A DNA stretch of 33,502 nt from Bacteroidales bacterium (GTDB taxonomy: Bacteria > Bacteroidota > Bacteroidia > Bacteroidales > VadinHA17). Under the pieces are notes generated by a model, which searched no databases, was not told where the DNA came from, and saw nothing but the letters and a program-made list of their open reading frames with translations. The position numbers and the translations under genes were made by a program. The stretch covers positions 1-33,502 of the forward strand of contig JAGGXD010000232.1 in the NCBI GenBank assembly GCA_021163295.1. Direction: 5' to 3'. Shown here one piece after another: positions 3,351 through 33,227 of the stretch; positions within the stretch are counted from its first letter, which is position 1; each line of letters starts with the position of its first letter.

Positions 3351-4874
3351 ATGTCAATAGTTATAACAGGTAATAACCTGACAATTGAAAAAGTTGTTAG
3401 AGTCGCGCGCAATAATGAGAAAGTTGAATTGCATCCGGAAGCAAAAGAAAAAATTAAAATTTGCCGGACTATGCTTGAAAAGAAAATTCTGGCACATGAA
3501 ATAATGTATGGAGTAAATACCGGTATAGGAGAATTTTCAGAAGTTGTCCTTGATGATAACCAGGTTAAGCAGTTTCAGAAATATCTGATATACAATCATG
3601 CTGCCGGAATAGGAGACCCGGCCCCTGTGGAATATGTTAGGGGAGCGATGCTTGGAAGGATAAATGTTCACGCTAATGGCAGATCAGGTTGCCGGCCCGT
3701 GATTACTGAAACTTTGGTTGAAATGCTTAATAAAGGTGTAACCCCTTTTGTTTGTCAAAAGGGCTCGGTTGGAGCATCCGGTGATCTTGCCCCGATGGCT
3801 CAAATTGCCTTGTTATTACTTGGTGAGGGGAAAGCATATTTTGGAGGTGAGTTGATGGAGGGAAAGAAAGCTATGGATAAGGCTGGGATTGTTATTCCCG
3901 GATTGGAAGCAAGAGATGGTTTAGCTACCATTAATGGTTCAAACTTATTAACTGCAATGAGTGCTTTATTTATATATGATGCTAATAATTGGCTTAAACA
4001 GGCTGAGATAGCAGCTGCTATGTCGCTTGAGGCTCTTAAAGCTAATATGAAACCATATACACCAAAATTGCATGAAGTCAGGGGCTTTAAAGGTGCTGTC
4101 CGAAGTGCCAAAGCAATTCAGAAAATCATTAAGGATGGCGATCTTATTAATGGAATTATAAAATGTAAGGTTCAGGATGCATATTCTATGAGATCAACTC
4201 CACAGGTGATTGGTACTGCTCATGATGCTCTTGCTTATGCTCGTTCACAAGTTGAAATTGAATTGAATGGTGTTGGCGATAACCCTGTTTTTTTTCCGGA
4301 GGAAGATATGCAACTTACAGGAGCTAATTTTCAGGGCACTCCGGTATCTTTACCTATGGATATGGCCGGAATAGCAATTACAATGGTTTGTGTTATGTCT
4401 GAAAGAAGAATGAACAGATTGAATAATCCTGCTCTTAGTGTTGGATTACCGGCTTTCCTTACAAAAGGAGCCGGAATGTTTTCCGGATTGATGCTAAGTC
4501 AGTATACCGCTGATATGCAAATTGTAGAACAAAAAATATTATCATCGCCTGCATCCATACAATCTATTCCGGCAGCTGCAGACCAGGAAGATTTTGTTTC
4601 AATGGGAATGAATACCGCAATTAAAAACTCACAAATACTTGATAACGCGTATGGAATATTAGGTATCGAGTTGATGGCTGCTGCACAAGCTCTTGATTTC
4701 AGAGAATATAAATTTGGTAAAGGTGTAAAAAAAGCAAAGGAAATAATTAGGAAATATGTTGATTTTCTTGAAACAGACAGACCTTTATACCCTGATCATA
4801 CAAGAATGAAAGAACTTGTTAAGTCGTGTGAAATTCTTTTTGAGGTGGAAAAAGTTGTTGGAGCCTTGGATTAA
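3351..4874 (+). CDS. hutH: MIO-dependent histidine/aromatic amino acid ammonia-lyase
   Basis: A 507-residue member of the HAL/PAL/TAL family, whose MIO cofactor forms autocatalytically from an Ala-Ser-Gly triad. The triad is present as A142-S143-G144 in 'GSVGASGDLAP', the same numbering as classical HAL. Other active-site elements are visible: Tyr in 'YGVNTG', Asn in 'TINGSN', Gln/Tyr/Arg in 'VQDAYSMRSTPQ', and Glu in 'DQEDFVSMG'. The His in 'YNHAAGIG' and the QED Glu favour a histidine lyase over tyrosine or phenylalanine lyases, which usually carry NQD. Differences from textbook HAL are QEDF instead of QEDH and 'NFQG' instead of 'NFHA/G'. No hutU, hutI or ftcD is adjacent, so the substrate is less certain than the fold. 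Confidence 0.85.
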   Translation: MSIVITGNNLTIEKVVRVARNNEKVELHPEAKEKIKICRTMLEKKILAHEIMYGVNTGIGEFSEVVLDDNQVKQFQKYLIYNHAAGIGDPAPVEYVRGAMLGRINVHANGRSGCRPVITETLVEMLNKGVTPFVCQKGSVGASGDLAPMAQIALLLLGEGKAYFGGELMEGKKAMDKAGIVIPGLEARDGLATINGSNLLTAMSALFIYDANNWLKQAEIAAAMSLEALKANMKPYTPKLHEVRGFKGAVRSAKAIQKIIKDGDLINGIIKCKVQDAYSMRSTPQVIGTAHDALAYARSQVEIELNGVGDNPVFFPEEDMQLTGANFQGTPVSLPMDMAGIAITMVCVMSERRMNRLNNPALSVGLPAFLTKGAGMFSGLMLSQYTADMQIVEQKILSSPASIQSIPAAADQEDFVSMGMNTAIKNSQILDNAYGILGIELMAAAQALDFREYKFGKGVKKAKEIIRKYVDFLETDRPLYPDHTRMKELVKSCEILFEVEKVVGALD

Positions 4875-4906: not shown

Positions 4907-5376
4907 TTAAAAATTTTGTCTTCCTTGATTTTCACGCCTGTTCCTAAGTTGGCGGAGAAGAAGAATTTTATATTGTTCTTCTGCAATATATATCTTCATT
5001 ACCTTACCGATGGGAAGAACCTCTTTGAATTTCTCATGGTATGCTAATAACAGGTCAGATTCTTCTTTCATAAGACGAATGTACTTTCCTGTCATCTCTT
5101 CAATTTCCTTCTCAGATAAATTATTGAAATTCTGCATGTAATACCGTGTTAAATTTCTTCTGTCCTGGATGATTTTGTTTTTACGTACCTGGTAATATTA
5201 TATATAGGCCAGAATTCCTGAGCTTCCCTGGAGGTCAATTGTAGTTTCTTGGTAAAAAAGCCCACCTTTTGTGCCTGGAGTTCCTGAACTTTATCATAAT
5301 TCTGTGAAGAAACTGTCCGTGGTCCCAGGAAAAATAAAATAAGGCAATAAAATAGCAAATTCTTTGAAGTTTTCAT
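4907..5376 (-). pseudogene. frameshifted periplasmic Spy/CpxP-like sensor protein
   Basis: The two ORFs at 5149-5376 and 4907-5137 are one gene broken by a frameshift. The first gives a signal peptide (MKTSKNLLFYCLILFFLGPRTVSSQ) and the helical block 'KKLQLTSREAQEFWPIYN'; the second continues it with 'MQNFNNLSEKEIEEMTGKYIRLMKEE'. In the TATATATAATATT tract (5191-5208, read on the minus strand) the frame shifts by one base. Adding a single base gives 'FWPIYNxYQVRKNKIIQDRRNLTRYYMQNFNNLSEKE', matching the usual 'FWPxYNEY' pattern of these helical ECF-associated envelope proteins. Family membership is inferred from the pattern. The short ORFs should not be annotated as separate proteins. An assembly error at this base is the alternative. 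Confidence 0.75.
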
Positions 5377-5388
5377 CCGTTTAAAATT

Positions 5389-5679
5389 TTATAATTGATT
5401 TGCAATTTCCCGGTTCCTGATATTTGAATTTGAATTCCTGTTAATGAAGTATCTGAATCCGGTATATCCTATCAGGGCAAAGCCAAGAATAGCAGCAGCA
5501 AGTGCCAGGTGTGGTTTTAAATAGTCAATAATACGGGTAACAGGCATGCCGATTGCTTTTTTGTGTGCATGAATGTTAACCTGTATCTTCTCAGGTAGAT
5601 TATCGAAATATTTATCCGGAACCCTGAAAGGATTTTCCTTCTTCAACCCGGAAAATTTATGTTCAGATTGTGTTTTCAT
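5389..5679 (-). CDS. probable C-terminally truncated anti-sigma/membrane partner of the ECF sigma factor
   Basis: A 96-residue protein beginning with the conserved 'ENPFRVPDKYFDNLPEKIQ' block that I know from small Bacteroidetes membrane proteins encoded directly downstream of ECF sigma factors. One transmembrane segment ('LALAAAILGFALIGYTGF') spans about residues 58-75, with the N-terminus expected in the cytoplasm. The protein ends at 'RNREIANQL', soon after the membrane segment; related proteins as I remember them continue with an acidic tail of several tens of residues, so the C-terminus is probably lost. The stop lies 12 bases before the next gene start. The anti-sigma role is inferred from position only. 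Confidence 0.6.
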   Translation of the reverse strand: MKTQSEHKFSGLKKENPFRVPDKYFDNLPEKIQVNIHAHKKAIGMPVTRIIDYLKPHLALAAAILGFALIGYTGFRYFINRNSNSNIRNREIANQL

Positions 5680-5730
5680 GTGTTTATTGATCCTTCCTGC
5701 AATTGTTTGACAAAGAAAAGCCAGGAAGGT

Positions 5731-5973
5731 TTAATCATTAGTTAAAAATTCTTTTATCTTTTTTACAGCATGATGATACGAAGCCTTAAGAGCTCCGACT
5801 GAGGTGTCGAGGATTTCAGCATCAGCATCCTCATGTGAAATGACGATCTTACGAATATGCCAATATAATTTTTCCTGGTACCTTTTAACAATTAAGCCGA
5901 AAGCATAATCAGGATTTTCTCCGGCGTTAAATATTTGTAAAAGATCTTTGTCACTATAGCTGTTTTCTGCCAC
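5731..5973 (-). pseudogene. ECF RNA polymerase sigma factor with internal deletion
   Basis: The frame encodes the start of sigma region 2 ('DKDLLQIFNAGENPDYAFGLIVKRYQEKLYWHIRKIVISHEDAD') and then jumps straight to the last helix of region 4 ('EILDTSVGALKASYHHAVKKIKEFL'). The rest of region 2 (promoter melting and -10 recognition), the linker and most of region 4 are missing, some 80-90 residues compared with a normal ~180-residue sigma of this type. The join is in frame at GATGCTGATGCTGAA, so it is a true deletion rather than a one-base error. The listed ORF start (MQKAFI..., 6120) lies inside the upstream gene; a GTG at 5973 (V-A-E-N-S-Y) is a more likely start. The product cannot be a working sigma factor. 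Confidence 0.8.
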
Positions 5974-6040: not shown

Positions 6041-7417
6041 TCACAATATCCTGATAGTCCCGGATTTTCCCGGTTCAATTTCAAAAGACTTATCAATAGT
6101 ATAATAAACGCTTTTTGCATTCCTGGGTTTAAAAATTACACGGTAATTACCGGGTAATAATACAAGATTAGTTACCTTGTTCTTAGTATCAATATTATAA
6201 ATCCACTCAAGATTGTTTTTCTTTTCCAGAAACAGGCCGCAATACCCTTCAGCACCAAAATTAAGAGTAATAATACCGGGACGGGGAATTTGAATAGTAG
6301 TGGTTTCGCTCTGAGAAATAACTACATCGTTAATAAGAAGCCGTGGGAGAGTTGGTATTTCTATGTCATACTTTCCTATTAAGTATTTTTCAGAATAATT
6401 TACTTTTTGATTGTTTAAAGTGGTTTTTTGACCGGCTTTCCTTACAAGAAAATCTAAATTTCTGAATTGATTGCCGTTTGGAGGCTTAATAATTAAGTTT
6501 CCCTGTGGAACATCTATAGCAATTATGTTGTGTTTCCCCTGATTTAAACGTATTGAATCAAGTGTTACAGGTGGTATTGAATGAACAACCATTTTGTATC
6601 TTATCATTGGGTCGAGATACAATGTATCCGGATTTCCACGGTGGTTAATTGCATGAATAAAATTATACATGATCCTTCCTGAATTAAGATCATAAAAGGT
6701 CATGTTTAAATTTGTTTCGCTGGGATACCCAAAAGAGTCAAGCAGGTTCACCTGGGCGGTAGTTTTATTAAGTGTTTTTGAAATTATCAAATTCAGAGCA
6801 TCTTTGAAGTTAGACTCCTTTTGTGTATTAATATAGGTGCCAACACAATTCAGGGATTTTTCAAATAGTGGGTCAATTCCTATTCCAATTATAAAAGGCT
6901 CAAGATATATTCCGTTTTTTTGCAGCCGTTTTGAAATTTCACAAGGATCACCATCACATGCTTCAATACCATCAGTAATCAAAATAATTATGTTCCTGCA
7001 ATTATCACATTCCGGAAAATCATTCCCGGCTTGCTCAAGAGAATATGCAATGGGTGTAGTCCCCTTAGGGATAAGATATCTCATGAGATGTTTAATATTC
7101 TTCCCGTTTTTTGGTGCGAAAGGAACCTCAAGCTTTGTATCACTGCAGTCCTGAGGCGGAACCACACTTTGATGTCCATATACTCTTAATGCCATTTGAA
7201 CATTGGGGATTTTCTCAAGACTGTCAATGGTTTGATAAAGGAATTCACGTGCAACATTGATCTTTTTTTCATTTTGCCACACACCGGCCATGCTTTGTGA
7301 ACAATCAAAAATAAACAGGATACGGGTCAAAGGTTCCCTGCTAATTTTAGTTTGTGATTGTAACGGAAGTATTACAAGGGTTGAGAAAACCAGTGCGAAA
7401 AATGGTGTTTTGATCAT
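6041..7417 (-). CDS. exported von Willebrand factor A-domain protein
   Basis: A 458-residue protein with a signal peptide (residues 1-22, ..LVILPLQSQ) and a VWA domain at about residues 32-215. The MIDAS metal site is intact: D38-x-S-x-S in 'FDCSQSM', Thr in 'GTTPIAYSLEQ', and Asp in 'LITDGIEACDGDPC'. Several Cys residues near the MIDAS (C39, 'QDCSD', 'ECDNC', 'EACDGDPCE', 'LNCVG') suggest disulfides outside the cytoplasm. The C-terminal half is beta-rich with PEGA-like repeats ('GKYDIEIPTLP', 'LPGNYRVIFKP'). The fold normally mediates metal-dependent protein binding. It lies 67 bases upstream of the damaged sigma gene on the same strand. Confidence 0.85.
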   Translation of the reverse strand: MIKTPFFALVFSTLVILPLQSQTKISREPLTRILFIFDCSQSMAGVWQNEKKINVAREFLYQTIDSLEKIPNVQMALRVYGHQSVVPPQDCSDTKLEVPFAPKNGKNIKHLMRYLIPKGTTPIAYSLEQAGNDFPECDNCRNIIILITDGIEACDGDPCEISKRLQKNGIYLEPFIIGIGIDPLFEKSLNCVGTYINTQKESNFKDALNLIISKTLNKTTAQVNLLDSFGYPSETNLNMTFYDLNSGRIMYNFIHAINHRGNPDTLYLDPMIRYKMVVHSIPPVTLDSIRLNQGKHNIIAIDVPQGNLIIKPPNGNQFRNLDFLVRKAGQKTTLNNQKVNYSEKYLIGKYDIEIPTLPRLLINDVVISQSETTTIQIPRPGIITLNFGAEGYCGLFLEKKNNLEWIYNIDTKNKVTNLVLLPGNYRVIFKPRNAKSVYYTIDKSFEIEPGKSGTIRIL

Positions 7418-7506
7418 ATATATTGAAATTAATCCTATCTCAAATATAGGATATACTTTGTAAATTTAAAGGAAAATCAATAATAATTAATTCAAAACCA
7501 GGATCC

Positions 7507-7534
7507 GGCACCTGGCACCCAGCACCCAGATACT
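7507..7534. repeat. degenerate heptamer tandem repeat
   Basis: GGCACCT GGCACCC AGCACCC AGATACT: three to four consecutive degenerate 7-base units in the intergenic region before ychF. The repeat is GC-rich in an AT-rich spacer, which makes it stand out. Comparable 7-mer strings are common between genes in Bacteroidetes genomes; the function is unknown. Confidence 0.7.
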
Positions 7535-7632
7535 TAGGTTAATTAATACAAACCAATAAATTTATAGCTTGCAAAAAATGACTGAGGCTGAAAAAAGCTA
7601 AAACACACTTTTTTTTGTGTCAGTATAAAATG

Positions 7633-7663: not shown

Positions 7664-8761
7664 ATGGCATTGAACTGTGGAATAATAGGGATAACAAATA
7701 CAGGAAAAACAACCTTATTTAATTGTATTTCACCTGTTAAAGGCGAAATAACAAATTTTGCATTCAGTGCAACAAAATCAAATATTGGAATTATTAAAGT
7801 TCCGGATCCCAGACTTCAGGAACTTGAAAAGTTTCAACCAACGGAAAAGATTGTTCCAACTACAGTAGAGATTGTAGATATACCTGGTCTTACAAAGGGT
7901 TCAAGCAGGGGTGAAGGTGTTGGAAACAAATTCCTGAATGATATTCGCAATGCCGATGCACTAATACACCTTCTCAGATGTTTTGATGATGAAAATCTTC
8001 CTCATACCGAAGGATCTGTTGATCCTGTCCGGGACCTTGAAACCATTGAACTCGAACTCCAGATCAAGGATCTTGAATCTGTCGAAAAAAAGCTGGGAAA
8101 AATTGAGAAATTGGAAAGATCAGGTGATAAAGATGCAGGAAAAAACGCTGATGTTCTGCGTACAATTAAAAATCATCTGGAAAATTTTCAGCCTGCAAGG
8201 TCATTGGAATTAAGTGATGAAGAAAGTAAATATGCTGAAGATTTGTTTCTGTTAACTGCAAAACCGGTTATGTACGTGTGTAATGTGGATGAAAAATCGG
8301 CAGTTTCGGGAAACAAGTATGTGGATAAGGTGAAGGAAGCACTAAAAGAGGAAGAAGCGGAAATACTTGTTATTGCTGCGGGCCTGGAAGCTGAAATTGC
8401 TGAATTAGAGGAAAAAAATGACAGGAATGATTTTCTTAATGATATCGGCCTTTCTGAACCCGGTGTGAATAAATTTGTAAGGGCAGCATACCAAATACTC
8501 AACCTGAAAACATTTTTTACGATTGGTCCTGATGAAATTAGAGCCTGGACTATTAAGGAGGGAGATAATGCCCGTAAGGCGGCAGGTGTTATTCATAGCG
8601 ACCTGGAAAGGGGTTTTATTAGGGCTGAGGTAATGAAATATGATGATTTTATATCACTGAAATCTGAACATAAATGCCGTGAAGCAGGAAAATTACATAT
8701 TGAAGGTAAAAACTATATTGTTGAAGATGGTGATATTTTGTTTATTCGATTTAATGTCTAA
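7664..8761 (+). CDS. ychF: redox-regulated ATPase YchF (Obg-family)
   Basis: A 365-residue Obg-family P-loop ATPase, conserved in nearly all bacteria and thought to act at the ribosome and in stress responses. Visible motifs: Walker A 'GITNTGKT' (residues 9-16), G3 'DIPG' (72-75), the non-canonical G4 'NVDE' that gives YchF its ATP rather than GTP preference, and a C-terminal TGS domain from about 280 ('LKTFFTIGPDEIRAWTIKEG'). Length is typical. The frame at 8188-8502 on the other strand is a shadow. The stop at 8761 is 13 bases before the likely start of the peptidase gene. Confidence 0.97.
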   Translation: MALNCGIIGITNTGKTTLFNCISPVKGEITNFAFSATKSNIGIIKVPDPRLQELEKFQPTEKIVPTTVEIVDIPGLTKGSSRGEGVGNKFLNDIRNADALIHLLRCFDDENLPHTEGSVDPVRDLETIELELQIKDLESVEKKLGKIEKLERSGDKDAGKNADVLRTIKNHLENFQPARSLELSDEESKYAEDLFLLTAKPVMYVCNVDEKSAVSGNKYVDKVKEALKEEEAEILVIAAGLEAEIAELEEKNDRNDFLNDIGLSEPGVNKFVRAAYQILNLKTFFTIGPDEIRAWTIKEGDNARKAAGVIHSDLERGFIRAEVMKYDDFISLKSEHKCREAGKLHIEGKNYIVEDGDILFIRFNV

Positions 8762-30274: not shown

Positions 30275-31591
30275 ATGATTGAACAGATCCTTACCCGGAA
30301 GAACATGTTGCAGGCAATGCGACAAGTCCAGAAGAACCACGGTTCGGCAGGAGTTGACCATATGCCGGTAACCAAGTTGTCAGAACTATGGTCAATAGAT
30401 AAAGAAGAACTGACAGCGGAGGTTCGTTCAGGGAAGTATTTGCCACAACCCATTTTAGGGATAGAGATTCCAAAGGGAAACGGGAAGATGCGCCTTTTGG
30501 GCATTCCGACCGTAACCGACCGATTGCTTCAGCAGGCGGTATTGCAAGTCATAATGGCACGGTTCGAGTTTGAATTTTCGGAATCCAGTTTTGGATTCCG
30601 GCCAAACAAGAGCCTCCATCAGGCAGTCCTGAAAGCGCAGGGTTACATCAACGAGGGATATCAGTATATCGTAGATATAGACCTGAAAACCTTTTTCGAT
30701 GAAATAGACCATTGCTATCTGGTACAATTACTCTACCGCAAAATCAAATGCCTGGAAACCTTACGTCTAATCCGTAAATGGCTACGTTCCCCGATTTCAA
30801 TAAAAGGGAAACTTGTCAAACGCAGAAAAGGCGTACCACAGGGTAGTCCACTCAGTCCGCTACTGTCCAATATCATATTACATGAGTTGGATAGGGAACT
30901 GGAAAGACAGGGATTGCGATTTGTCCGTTATGCCGACGATTTTAGTATATATACCAAAACCAAGGCAAATTCCCGAAAGGTTGGTAACGCTATTTTCAAG
31001 TTTCTTAGAAACAAGCTAAAACTGACTATTAACCGGGAGAAAAGCGGAATCCGCCGACCAGTACAACTCACAATTTTAGGATTTGGTTTTGTACCCACCT
31101 ATGTGAAAGGAGAAAAAGGCAAATATCAATTGGTAGTTTCGGAAAAGAGTTGGAAGAAGCTAAAGCAAAAGCTCAAAATCCTTACTCGAAAAACTACTCC
31201 AATGAGTTTCGATGAACGTATCGAAAAACTCAATCAAGTTCAAAGAGGATGGGTGAATAATTTCCGTATGGCAAGTATTCAAAACAAACTCAACGAACTG
31301 GATGGATGGTTACGAAACCGTCTTCAGTATTGCATCTGGCATCACTGGAAGAAATCCGAACGGAAAAGGAAAAACCTGATTCGGTTGGGAGTCGAACAGG
31401 GACAAGCCTATGCATGGAGTCGGTCACGAATGGGTGGTTGGGCTATTGCTCAAAGTCCAATTCTTGGGACTACTATCACAGTTGATAGATTAAAGAAGCG
31501 AGGATATGTATCTCTACTCGAGATTTACCGAAAGATTTCCCCACAACTTAACGAACCGCTGCTTACGAGACCCGTACGGGCAGTGGTGTGA
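30275..31591 (+). CDS. ltrA: group II intron reverse transcriptase/maturase
   Basis: A 438-residue intron-encoded protein that splices the intron RNA and reverse-transcribes it at target sites. The seven RT blocks are visible, including 'GFRPNKSLHQAV', 'VDIDLKTFFDEIDH', 'GVPQGSPLSPLLSNI' and the catalytic 'RYADDFSIY' (Y219-D222). A maturase X domain follows ('FDERIEKLNQVQRGWVNNFRMA'). The protein ends with 'NEPLLTRPVRAVV' and lacks the C-terminal HNH endonuclease, so it should move by a nuclease-free route. The last codons lie in domain V and the stop codon sits right after it. No lesion is seen, so the element may be active. Confidence 0.95.
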   Translation: MIEQILTRKNMLQAMRQVQKNHGSAGVDHMPVTKLSELWSIDKEELTAEVRSGKYLPQPILGIEIPKGNGKMRLLGIPTVTDRLLQQAVLQVIMARFEFEFSESSFGFRPNKSLHQAVLKAQGYINEGYQYIVDIDLKTFFDEIDHCYLVQLLYRKIKCLETLRLIRKWLRSPISIKGKLVKRRKGVPQGSPLSPLLSNIILHELDRELERQGLRFVRYADDFSIYTKTKANSRKVGNAIFKFLRNKLKLTINREKSGIRRPVQLTILGFGFVPTYVKGEKGKYQLVVSEKSWKKLKQKLKILTRKTTPMSFDERIEKLNQVQRGWVNNFRMASIQNKLNELDGWLRNRLQYCIWHHWKKSERKRKNLIRLGVEQGQAYAWSRSRMGGWAIAQSPILGTTITVDRLKKRGYVSLLEIYRKISPQLNEPLLTRPVRAVV

Positions 31592-31651: not shown

Positions 31652-32965
31652 TCAATTTCTTAACTTTTCAAGTGTTGTTGGATTGTAATTAACCTTTGAA
31701 ATATTATTTGTGAAAAATATAGCATCAAACGATCTCTTTGGAATACAAGTCATTTCAAAACCTTGTGCTTGAATTACTTTATCTGTATTGAGCCACTTTT
31801 CAACTTCCTTATTTTCCGATTTTCCTTTTAGGTCAAGTAAAAAGTATTTCCTTTTTAATTTAGCAAGTGTGCCGTCAATGGTATTTTCTTCGGCAGGTTC
31901 AAAAGTTATATTTTCATTTTGAAAAACTCCTTGATTAAATGAAGCACCAATAGAAATCATTTTATCTTTAAGTTCTTGATGTAAAATATATCCCATTCCT
32001 TGAATTCTGTTTTCAGGAAACATATTCATAGTAAATTCTGACTTGGCTATATGAACATTATGAGCCCAAATAATTAATTTCTCATTTCTCTCGTTTATCC
32101 ATAAAGCGATATTTGCCATTGCATTATCTCGAATTAATCCCATTTTAATCCTATCTGTCTCAGTAAACATTTTATTCGCTTCATTTGCAGAATAAGAGAG
32201 TTTTAAAATCCAGTTGTATTCACTTTCAGTTGAGTTACCAATATATCGCTTTTCATTTTCTTTTATCTGCTGAAATAATTCATTATAGTTTTTTATCAAA
32301 ATTTGTTTTTCTTCTTCTCCAAGTTCTGAATAATGTTGCAAAGATGTTTGCCATTGATTGTCTTCAATTATATTTCGAGCAAAATTTTTGCCTTGAATAT
32401 TCCCATAATAAGTTTTATCTACTTTTTGTAAGTATTCAAATATTTGGTCAATTGCATTATTTGGTGCAACAATATCAATTCCATAAAAATTTACTTTCTT
32501 TTCATTTTTAGGATTTTGATTAAAATCTTTTAACCAATTTAATATTTTCGTCATTTCTTGTGTGTCCCACAAAAACCACCCAGGCATATTTGACATTATC
32601 TCGTCAATGTTACCGTTGCCATTAAGAATATAGTCATTGATTTTATTTGAATATGGAAAACTTGCTTCTAAAATAAATGTGGTAAAGTTCATTTCTTCAA
32701 CGAGATATTTTATAAAACGATGTTTCAATTGAAATTGTTCGTGAATATCGTGGCGACTTTCTCCAAGACAAACAACTTCTGCTTTTCCGACAATTTGCTT
32801 TAACAGTTTCAAATCGTCTTGTTTTTCCGTTACTTCAAGTGTCTCGATTTTTTGTGAGTTTTTTAATGCCCAGTCCGTGAATTTGTCATTCTTTTCTTGC
32901 GAAGATGAGTTATTGCAACTTACAGTTACTAATAAAATTATAAATGCTCCTAATACTCTTTTCAT
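31652..32965 (-). CDS. erythromycin esterase-family lipoprotein
   Basis: A hydrolase of the EreA/EreB fold. The track start (32986) overlaps the upstream gene; MKRVLGAFIILLVTVSC at 32965 gives a lipoprotein signal and a protein of 437 residues, 10 bases after the zinc-ribbon stop codon. Family motifs seen: 'CLGESRHDIHEQFQLKHRFIKYL' (His and Glu of the active site), 'FILEASFPYS', 'FYGIDIVAPNNAI' and 'IIWAHNVHIAKS'. Most members of this large family do not inactivate macrolides, so resistance is not claimed. The outer surface location set by the lipid anchor is unlike the cytoplasmic Ere enzymes. The gene ends 14 bases from the group II intron. Confidence 0.85.
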   Translation of the reverse strand: MKRVLGAFIILLVTVSCNNSSSQEKNDKFTDWALKNSQKIETLEVTEKQDDLKLLKQIVGKAEVVCLGESRHDIHEQFQLKHRFIKYLVEEMNFTTFILEASFPYSNKINDYILNGNGNIDEIMSNMPGWFLWDTQEMTKILNWLKDFNQNPKNEKKVNFYGIDIVAPNNAIDQIFEYLQKVDKTYYGNIQGKNFARNIIEDNQWQTSLQHYSELGEEEKQILIKNYNELFQQIKENEKRYIGNSTESEYNWILKLSYSANEANKMFTETDRIKMGLIRDNAMANIALWINERNEKLIIWAHNVHIAKSEFTMNMFPENRIQGMGYILHQELKDKMISIGASFNQGVFQNENITFEPAEENTIDGTLAKLKRKYFLLDLKGKSENKEVEKWLNTDKVIQAQGFEMTCIPKRSFDAIFFTNNISKVNYNPTTLEKLRN

Positions 32966-32975
32966 AATATTGCCT

Positions 32976-33227
32976 TTAAATTTCAATGTCCTTCCAAGCA
33001 GGAAATTGTTTCAACCTTTCTTTTGCTATTTTTTCGGCTTGTTCTTCACCAAAATCATTGGTTTCAATTATCATATTTTTAAAATCCTTTACTTTTTCAG
33101 TGTAAGATTTTAAATTCCCTTTATTGTCAGTGCAATGGTTGCAATATTTATTTTCTGATTTTTTACCACCAAAATCTTCAATGCTTTTCATTGGCATTCC
33201 GCAACTTTCACATATTTTTTGTTTCAT
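32976..33227 (-). CDS. zinc-ribbon domain protein
   Basis: An 83-residue protein with a four-Cys zinc ribbon (CESC at residues 6-9 and CNHC at 29-32) and a helical tail ('EEQAEKIAKERLKQFPAW'). It matches the small 'putative zinc ribbon' family common in bacteria, whose function is unknown. It ends 10 bases before the proposed esterase start, so the pair is likely co-transcribed. It lies in what looks like a cassette unit with the esterase. Confidence 0.82.
   Translation of the reverse strand: MKQKICESCGMPMKSIEDFGGKKSENKYCNHCTDNKGNLKSYTEKVKDFKNMIIETNDFGEEQAEKIAKERLKQFPAWKDIEI

Follow-up and report, generated by a model that had tools for sequence, protein, structure and literature searches.

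Probable recent pseudogenisation of an ECF sigma factor and its putative membrane anti-sigma and periplasmic sensor partners in a Bacteroidales genome

We consider it highly probable (roughly 0.88) that positions 4,907 to 5,973 of the DNA analyzed here carry a recently pseudogenised module comprising an ECF sigma factor, a single-pass membrane anti-sigma factor and a periplasmic sensor. The gene loss is real but ordinary, and it is recent. Of two marks of a pseudogene, inactivating lesions relative to intact close orthologues were found, while neutral dN/dS along the lineage was not. The locus thus presents a complete signaling unit caught during its loss, in a datable state: all of its genes are broken, yet past selection on them is still readable.

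The window, i.e., the whole stretch of DNA analyzed, is an entire contig (C259; 33,502 bp) of a MAG-like genome assembly of 3.49 Mb in 272 contigs (G000; 96.6% complete, 0.03% contaminated), and its sequence contains no N at any position. It was compared with six congeners (G001–G006), and lesions were called by nucleotide alignment of the window with these genomes. The names of the congener MAG records (CSMAG_..., B79T3L11) suggest that the window bacterium and its congeners inhabit sediment. The features discussed below are the following:

7664–8761, plus strand: YchF-type GTPase gene, flanking, intact
7492–7547, minus strand: 56-bp insertion made up of GGGTGCT-type heptamer repeats, situated between ychF and the vWA gene, on the upstream side of the latter
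6041–7417, minus strand: gene for a secreted vWA-domain protein, intact, adjoining the sigma remnant on its upstream side
5731–5973, minus strand: remnant of the ECF sigma-factor gene, GTG start (from nucleotide alignment with congeners)
5817–5824, minus strand: site at which 312 bp of sigma were deleted in frame; the junction reads GATGCT GATGCT, with TGCT microhomology at both parental ends
5389–5679, minus strand: remnant of the single-TM membrane partner gene, a putative anti-sigma factor (from nucleotide alignment with congeners)
5402–5407, minus strand: junction of the in-frame 156-bp partner deletion between AATTGC direct repeats; the original stop codon stays in frame
4907–5376, minus strand: remnant of the gene for a secreted helical sensor (CnrX/Spy-like), split into ORFs 5376–5149 and 5137–4907
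3351–4874, plus strand: HutH-type aromatic amino-acid lyase gene, flanking, intact, 93–95% identical in congeners

Lesions in the three module genes

The original prediction, which had been made from this DNA alone, held that three neighboring same-strand genes each carry a lesion of their own, and the alignments bear this out, with 312 bp, 156 bp and 1 bp missing relative to the congeners. The sigma gene retains 80 codons, as compared to 183–184 in the congeners, owing to the in-frame loss of 104 codons; codons 1–49 and the final ~29 codons remain, and most of region 2, the linker and the start of region 4 have been removed. The product of the remnant has no Pfam match, and its NCBIfam matches are weak and to separate ends; the intact congener sigma factor matches both PF04542 (Sigma70_r2; E 7.7e-17) and PF08281 (Sigma70_r4_2; E 5.5e-16). 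Judged by its sequence, the window product is a descendant of an ECF sigma factor and not a working one, the combination of regions 2 and 4 having been lost.

The membrane partner measures 96 amino acids in the window and 148 in the congeners, since 52 codons are gone at the 3' end of its gene. The N-terminal motif and the transmembrane segment are retained, while the acidic C-terminus, including the motif DYLxxExI, is gone. Among about 109 relatives, this motif is conserved and the partner is nearly always 120–179 amino acids long. In the sensor gene, a single base that does not lie in a homopolymer has been deleted between 5197 and 5196. The reading frame ends shortly behind FWPVYN, a near-invariant motif and the best-conserved stretch of the sensor among 34 relatives, and the remainder is read in another frame. 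With the core of the sigma factor, the periplasmic domain of the putative anti-sigma factor and the sensor frame removed, the switch cannot work. Two of the three window deletions preserve the reading frame, for which the chance is about 1 in 9; this counts against pseudogenisation, as a short functional product would show the same.

The flanking genes had also been predicted to be intact, and hutH, vWA and ychF are indeed whole; none of the eight flanking genes that we compared with the congeners is broken in the window. The 56-bp insertion is specific to the window and missing from the congeners; repeats similar to its GGGTGCT-type heptamers match at seven more sites of the genome, on six other contigs. 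The insertion is possibly a further lesion, in the promoter region of the module operon.

Selection on the remnants

Selection on the 325 codons still present was estimated with an MG94-type codon model in which the window branch had an omega of its own. This omega was 0.243, as compared to 0.357 for the background, and the log likelihood fell from -2338.09 at the best fit to -2339.83 at an omega of 0.40, -2340.74 at 0.45 and -2351.43 at 1.0, which places the 95% upper bound between 0.40 and 0.45, at about 0.41. The full-taxon fit gave a similar result (omega 0.247 vs. 0.318; omega = 1 worse by 13.3). In the reduced five-taxon set, the window-branch omega was 0.111 for vWA and 0.076 for ychF. 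The relaxed selection that the original prediction had read into the locus, and which it had proposed to measure as dN/dS on the fragments, was therefore not recovered on the window branch, where the fragments evolved at a lower omega than the background and an omega of 1 was rejected. Rather, these values indicate that purifying selection acted over most of this branch and, hence, that the decay is recent.

Had the module instead decayed neutrally long ago, under selection relaxed along the whole lineage, lesions in all three genes would be expected, and all three have indeed been hit. However, this reading scarcely accords with a branch omega of 0.24, at which neutrality is rejected by 13 log units, and we regard it as very improbable. 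Calculated from the fits and the upper bound of about 0.41, the share of the branch that can have drifted neutrally is at most about 8% assuming that omega stood at 0.357 before the decay, and about 30% assuming a value as low as 0.18.

The low omega of the fragments, and especially that of the sigma fragment (0.11, the lowest value, although estimated from few codons), might also be taken to mean that the module has been miniaturized and still functions, its short sigma-like, membrane and sensor peptides serving a new purpose, e.g., as a decoy for sigma or as a tether in the membrane. In favor of this, the deletions in the sigma and partner genes both preserve the frame, and translation would still end at the native stop codons. 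However, a long functional period before the lesions arose explains the low omega equally well. Moreover, the sigma remnant is devoid of nearly all of region 2, which binds core polymerase and the -10 element, the sensor is frameshifted inside its conserved core, and the same short forms were seen in no other surveyed genome. We therefore give this alternative little weight and retain recent pseudogenisation as the explanation of the locus.

Congeners, family distribution and remaining copies

The original prediction had also proposed a survey of close relatives for intact copies, and these exist: in G001, G002, G003 and G004 all three module genes are open and full length (sigma 183–184, partner 148 and sensor 153–156 amino acids). 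In a tree of the flanking genes and the module, the window genome is sister to the intact G003 with 100% support, and G005 is placed elsewhere. In G005, the 5' end of the sigma gene has been lost, which leaves ychF at a distance of about 50 bp from sigma codon 59, the partner gene has suffered an out-of-frame loss of 178 bp between GCAAATCA repeats, and the vWA gene is missing from the whole genome; the sensor reading frame is still open. The fragments of this lineage, like those of the window, have a low omega (0.231; omega = 1 worse by 16). Since the lesions and repeat junctions of the two genomes differ, as do their positions in the tree, inheritance of the lesions from a common ancestor was ruled out, and G005 broke its module independently of the window lineage. 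Of the six species of the genus that could be assessed, two have thus suffered independent damage to the module. Together with the intact orthologues of G001–G004, these lesions uphold the claim that a whole functional unit is decaying. Pseudogenes that arise by short-repeat deletion likewise show direct repeats of 4–9 bp, several lesions per unit and few substitutions; the present case is unusual only in the independent hits on the same unit in two of the six species.

In G006, the sigma gene is intact, and contig C380 breaks off within the partner gene, precisely where GCAAATCA ends (L050:1-20); the remainder of the partner region beyond this contig end was not found in the G006 assembly. 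Such a contig end is what coexisting full-length and deleted alleles would give.

An assembly or strain-mixture artefact, i.e., an intact population collapsed into a damaged consensus, might be suspected in a MAG-like assembly of 272 contigs, the more so as the G006 contig breaks precisely at a repeat in the partner gene and as the partial sigma genes of G057 and G065, which we had considered as further decayed copies in the family, proved to be N-gap artefacts. However, three separate lesions lie within 1.1 kb of an N-free window, and none in the eight neighbors compared; junction repeats of 4–6 bp would not be long enough to confuse an assembler working with k-mers, the lost single base lies outside homopolymers, and the same kind of loss recurs in G005, which comes from another record set. 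We therefore judge such an artefact unlikely, and the lesions are best read as real products of pseudogenisation.

Both G000 and G005 have lost the C-terminus of the partner, and each has also lost an essential part of the sigma factor. The AATTGC junction of the former, the GCAAATCA junction of the latter and a possibly segregating allele in G006 raise the rather doubtful prospect that, in this genus, deletions recur at a hot spot in the sequence for the anti-sigma periplasmic C-terminus, so that the module, instead of decaying a single time, would be switched off or re-tuned again and again through repeat-mediated deletion.

Within the family, the sigma factor was detected (E <= 1e-40) in 82 of 117 genomes, and in 44 of the 65 genomes of good quality. 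Its absence from about a third of the latter fits a dispensable accessory switch, and, together with the second independent loss in the genus, the frequent absence in the family marks the sigma module as conditionally dispensable. Among loci with the module sensor, the sigma factor is full length in 70 of the 71 examined, i.e., those with enough upstream sequence. The arrangement of the genes, with sigma first, the single-TM partner second and the secreted sensor third, all on the same strand, is conserved in the genus, in the family and beyond, across the order and the phylum; outside the family, a genome scan found sensors of the module in Bacteroidales, Flavobacteriales, Saprospiraceae and Hymenobacter.

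A search for a second ECF module in the window genome, which had likewise been proposed, gave a divided answer. Sensor and sigma profile searches (sigma cut-off E <= 1e-40) yielded no second orthologous copy, and the other ECF sigma factors of G000 are at most 32% identical. The nearest, on contig C61, heads an intact paralogous operon of four genes (L178:1742-3915):

sigma factor, 185 amino acids
TM anti-sigma-like protein, 139 amino acids
membrane-anchored Spy-like protein, 156 amino acids
Metal_resist/LTXXQ protein, 196 amino acids

The same operon is also intact in G005. The loss of a "complete envelope-stress pathway" that the original prediction had described is therefore borne out for one module and not for the genome as a whole, as a paralogous ECF/anti-sigma/Spy-like operon remains and only one envelope-sensing branch has been lost. 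That the functions of the lost module and the C61 operon overlap would be a guess. Phocaeicola vulgatus, too, has two sigma/anti-sigma/Spy loci (PMC13114119).

Predicted function and related systems

The module is of a known kind (ECF sigma factor, membrane anti-sigma factor, CnrX/Spy-like periplasmic sensor), which is widespread in Bacteroidota and often missing in this family. The anti-sigma and sensor functions are suggested by the order of the genes, by topology and by a weak similarity of fold, and a role in envelope stress by comparable systems. The intact 148-residue partner has no Pfam or NCBIfam match above cut-off, and a class I anti-sigma domain or zf-HC2 was not recognized in it; its position and topology point to an anti-sigma factor. 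It has one transmembrane segment followed by an acidic C-terminus (3 basic, 18 acidic residues), which, by positive-inside reasoning, probably lies in the periplasm.

The intact congener sensor has no match to PF07813 (Spy/CpxP/LTXXQ) or PF13801 (Metal_resist) above the gathering score. The sensors of 34 relatives match these families only weakly (LTXXQ in five, best E 8.7e-5; Metal_resist in three, best E 2.3e-4), and sequence searches against Pfam and PDB families gave no convincing match. An AF2 model of the sensor (pLDDT 90.5) has CnrX as its sole functionally coherent fold match in the PDB; the Foldseek probabilities are mostly 0.93–0.99 and the TM scores about 0.44–0.50 (query) and 0.59–0.70 (target), but the E-values are weak (0.25 and above), and we therefore term the sensor CnrX/Spy-like rather than a proven family member.

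In the intact module, the cytoplasmic N-terminus of the partner (ENPFxVPDxYFxxLP) would hold the sigma factor at the inner membrane, and the helical-hairpin sensor would act on the acidic periplasmic C-terminus, so that an envelope signal would lead to release of the sigma factor, which may then transcribe its own operon. Once the window lineage had split from G003, short-repeat deletions and the loss of one base disabled this switch. An unrestrained sigma factor is usually costly. For this reason, and because the anti-sigma gene of the P. vulgatus EcfO system could not be deleted alone but could be deleted together with the sigma gene as a pair in a 2022 study (PMC9308784), the sigma factor was probably lost first or together with the anti-sigma lesion. 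This order is not a firm rule, since deletions of reo and of cirZ were both employed in later work (PMC13114119).

Among known systems, CirY/CirZ/Spy of P. vulgatus is likewise a Bacteroidales operon in which genes for an ECF sigma factor and an anti-sigma factor are followed by one for a secreted, helical, Spy-like protein; there, deletion of the anti-sigma gene turns on sigma and spy, and the operon is dispensable under the colitis condition tested (PMC13114119), which fits an easy loss of the module. The likeness considered here is one of architecture. Unlike that operon, the present module has a vWA gene upstream in many relatives, and its copy in the window is broken. CnrH/CnrY/CnrX of Cupriavidus metallidurans also comprises an ECF sigma factor, a short single-TM anti-sigma factor and a periplasmic helical-hairpin sensor, although the fold match of the present sensor to CnrX has weak E-values and no sequence match was obtained. 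EcfO–Reo of Bacteroides/Phocaeicola is a further Bacteroidales pair of ECF sigma factor and membrane anti-sigma factor, responsive to envelope stress; however, Reo is far larger and reaches the outer membrane with a C-terminal beta-barrel, whereas here a single-TM partner is accompanied by a separate sensor (PMC9308784, PMC13114119).

In 29 of 71 loci, vWA is found upstream of sigma, on its strand and no more than about 1.3 kb away; in 11 of them it is directly adjacent, and otherwise it lies about 1 kb away by tblastn. As the same-strand upstream neighbor of sigma in many relatives, it is probably an ancestral operon partner, and the arrangement represents a conserved synteny in many Bacteroidota, of which our literature search found no description.

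Three minor observations concern the surroundings of the module. In G003, hutH and hisS are separated by an additional HutH-like gene (L047:7491-8969; diverged, 35%), which is missing at that place in the window. The ychF gene of G003 (L047:1670-2764), otherwise 95% identical, has one internal stop codon that is either a sequencing error or a real lesion. At the right end of the window contig, a GC-richer patch contains a reverse transcriptase/maturase-like ORF (30275–31591), by eye of the group II intron type, beside an erythromycin-esterase-like ORF (31652–32986).
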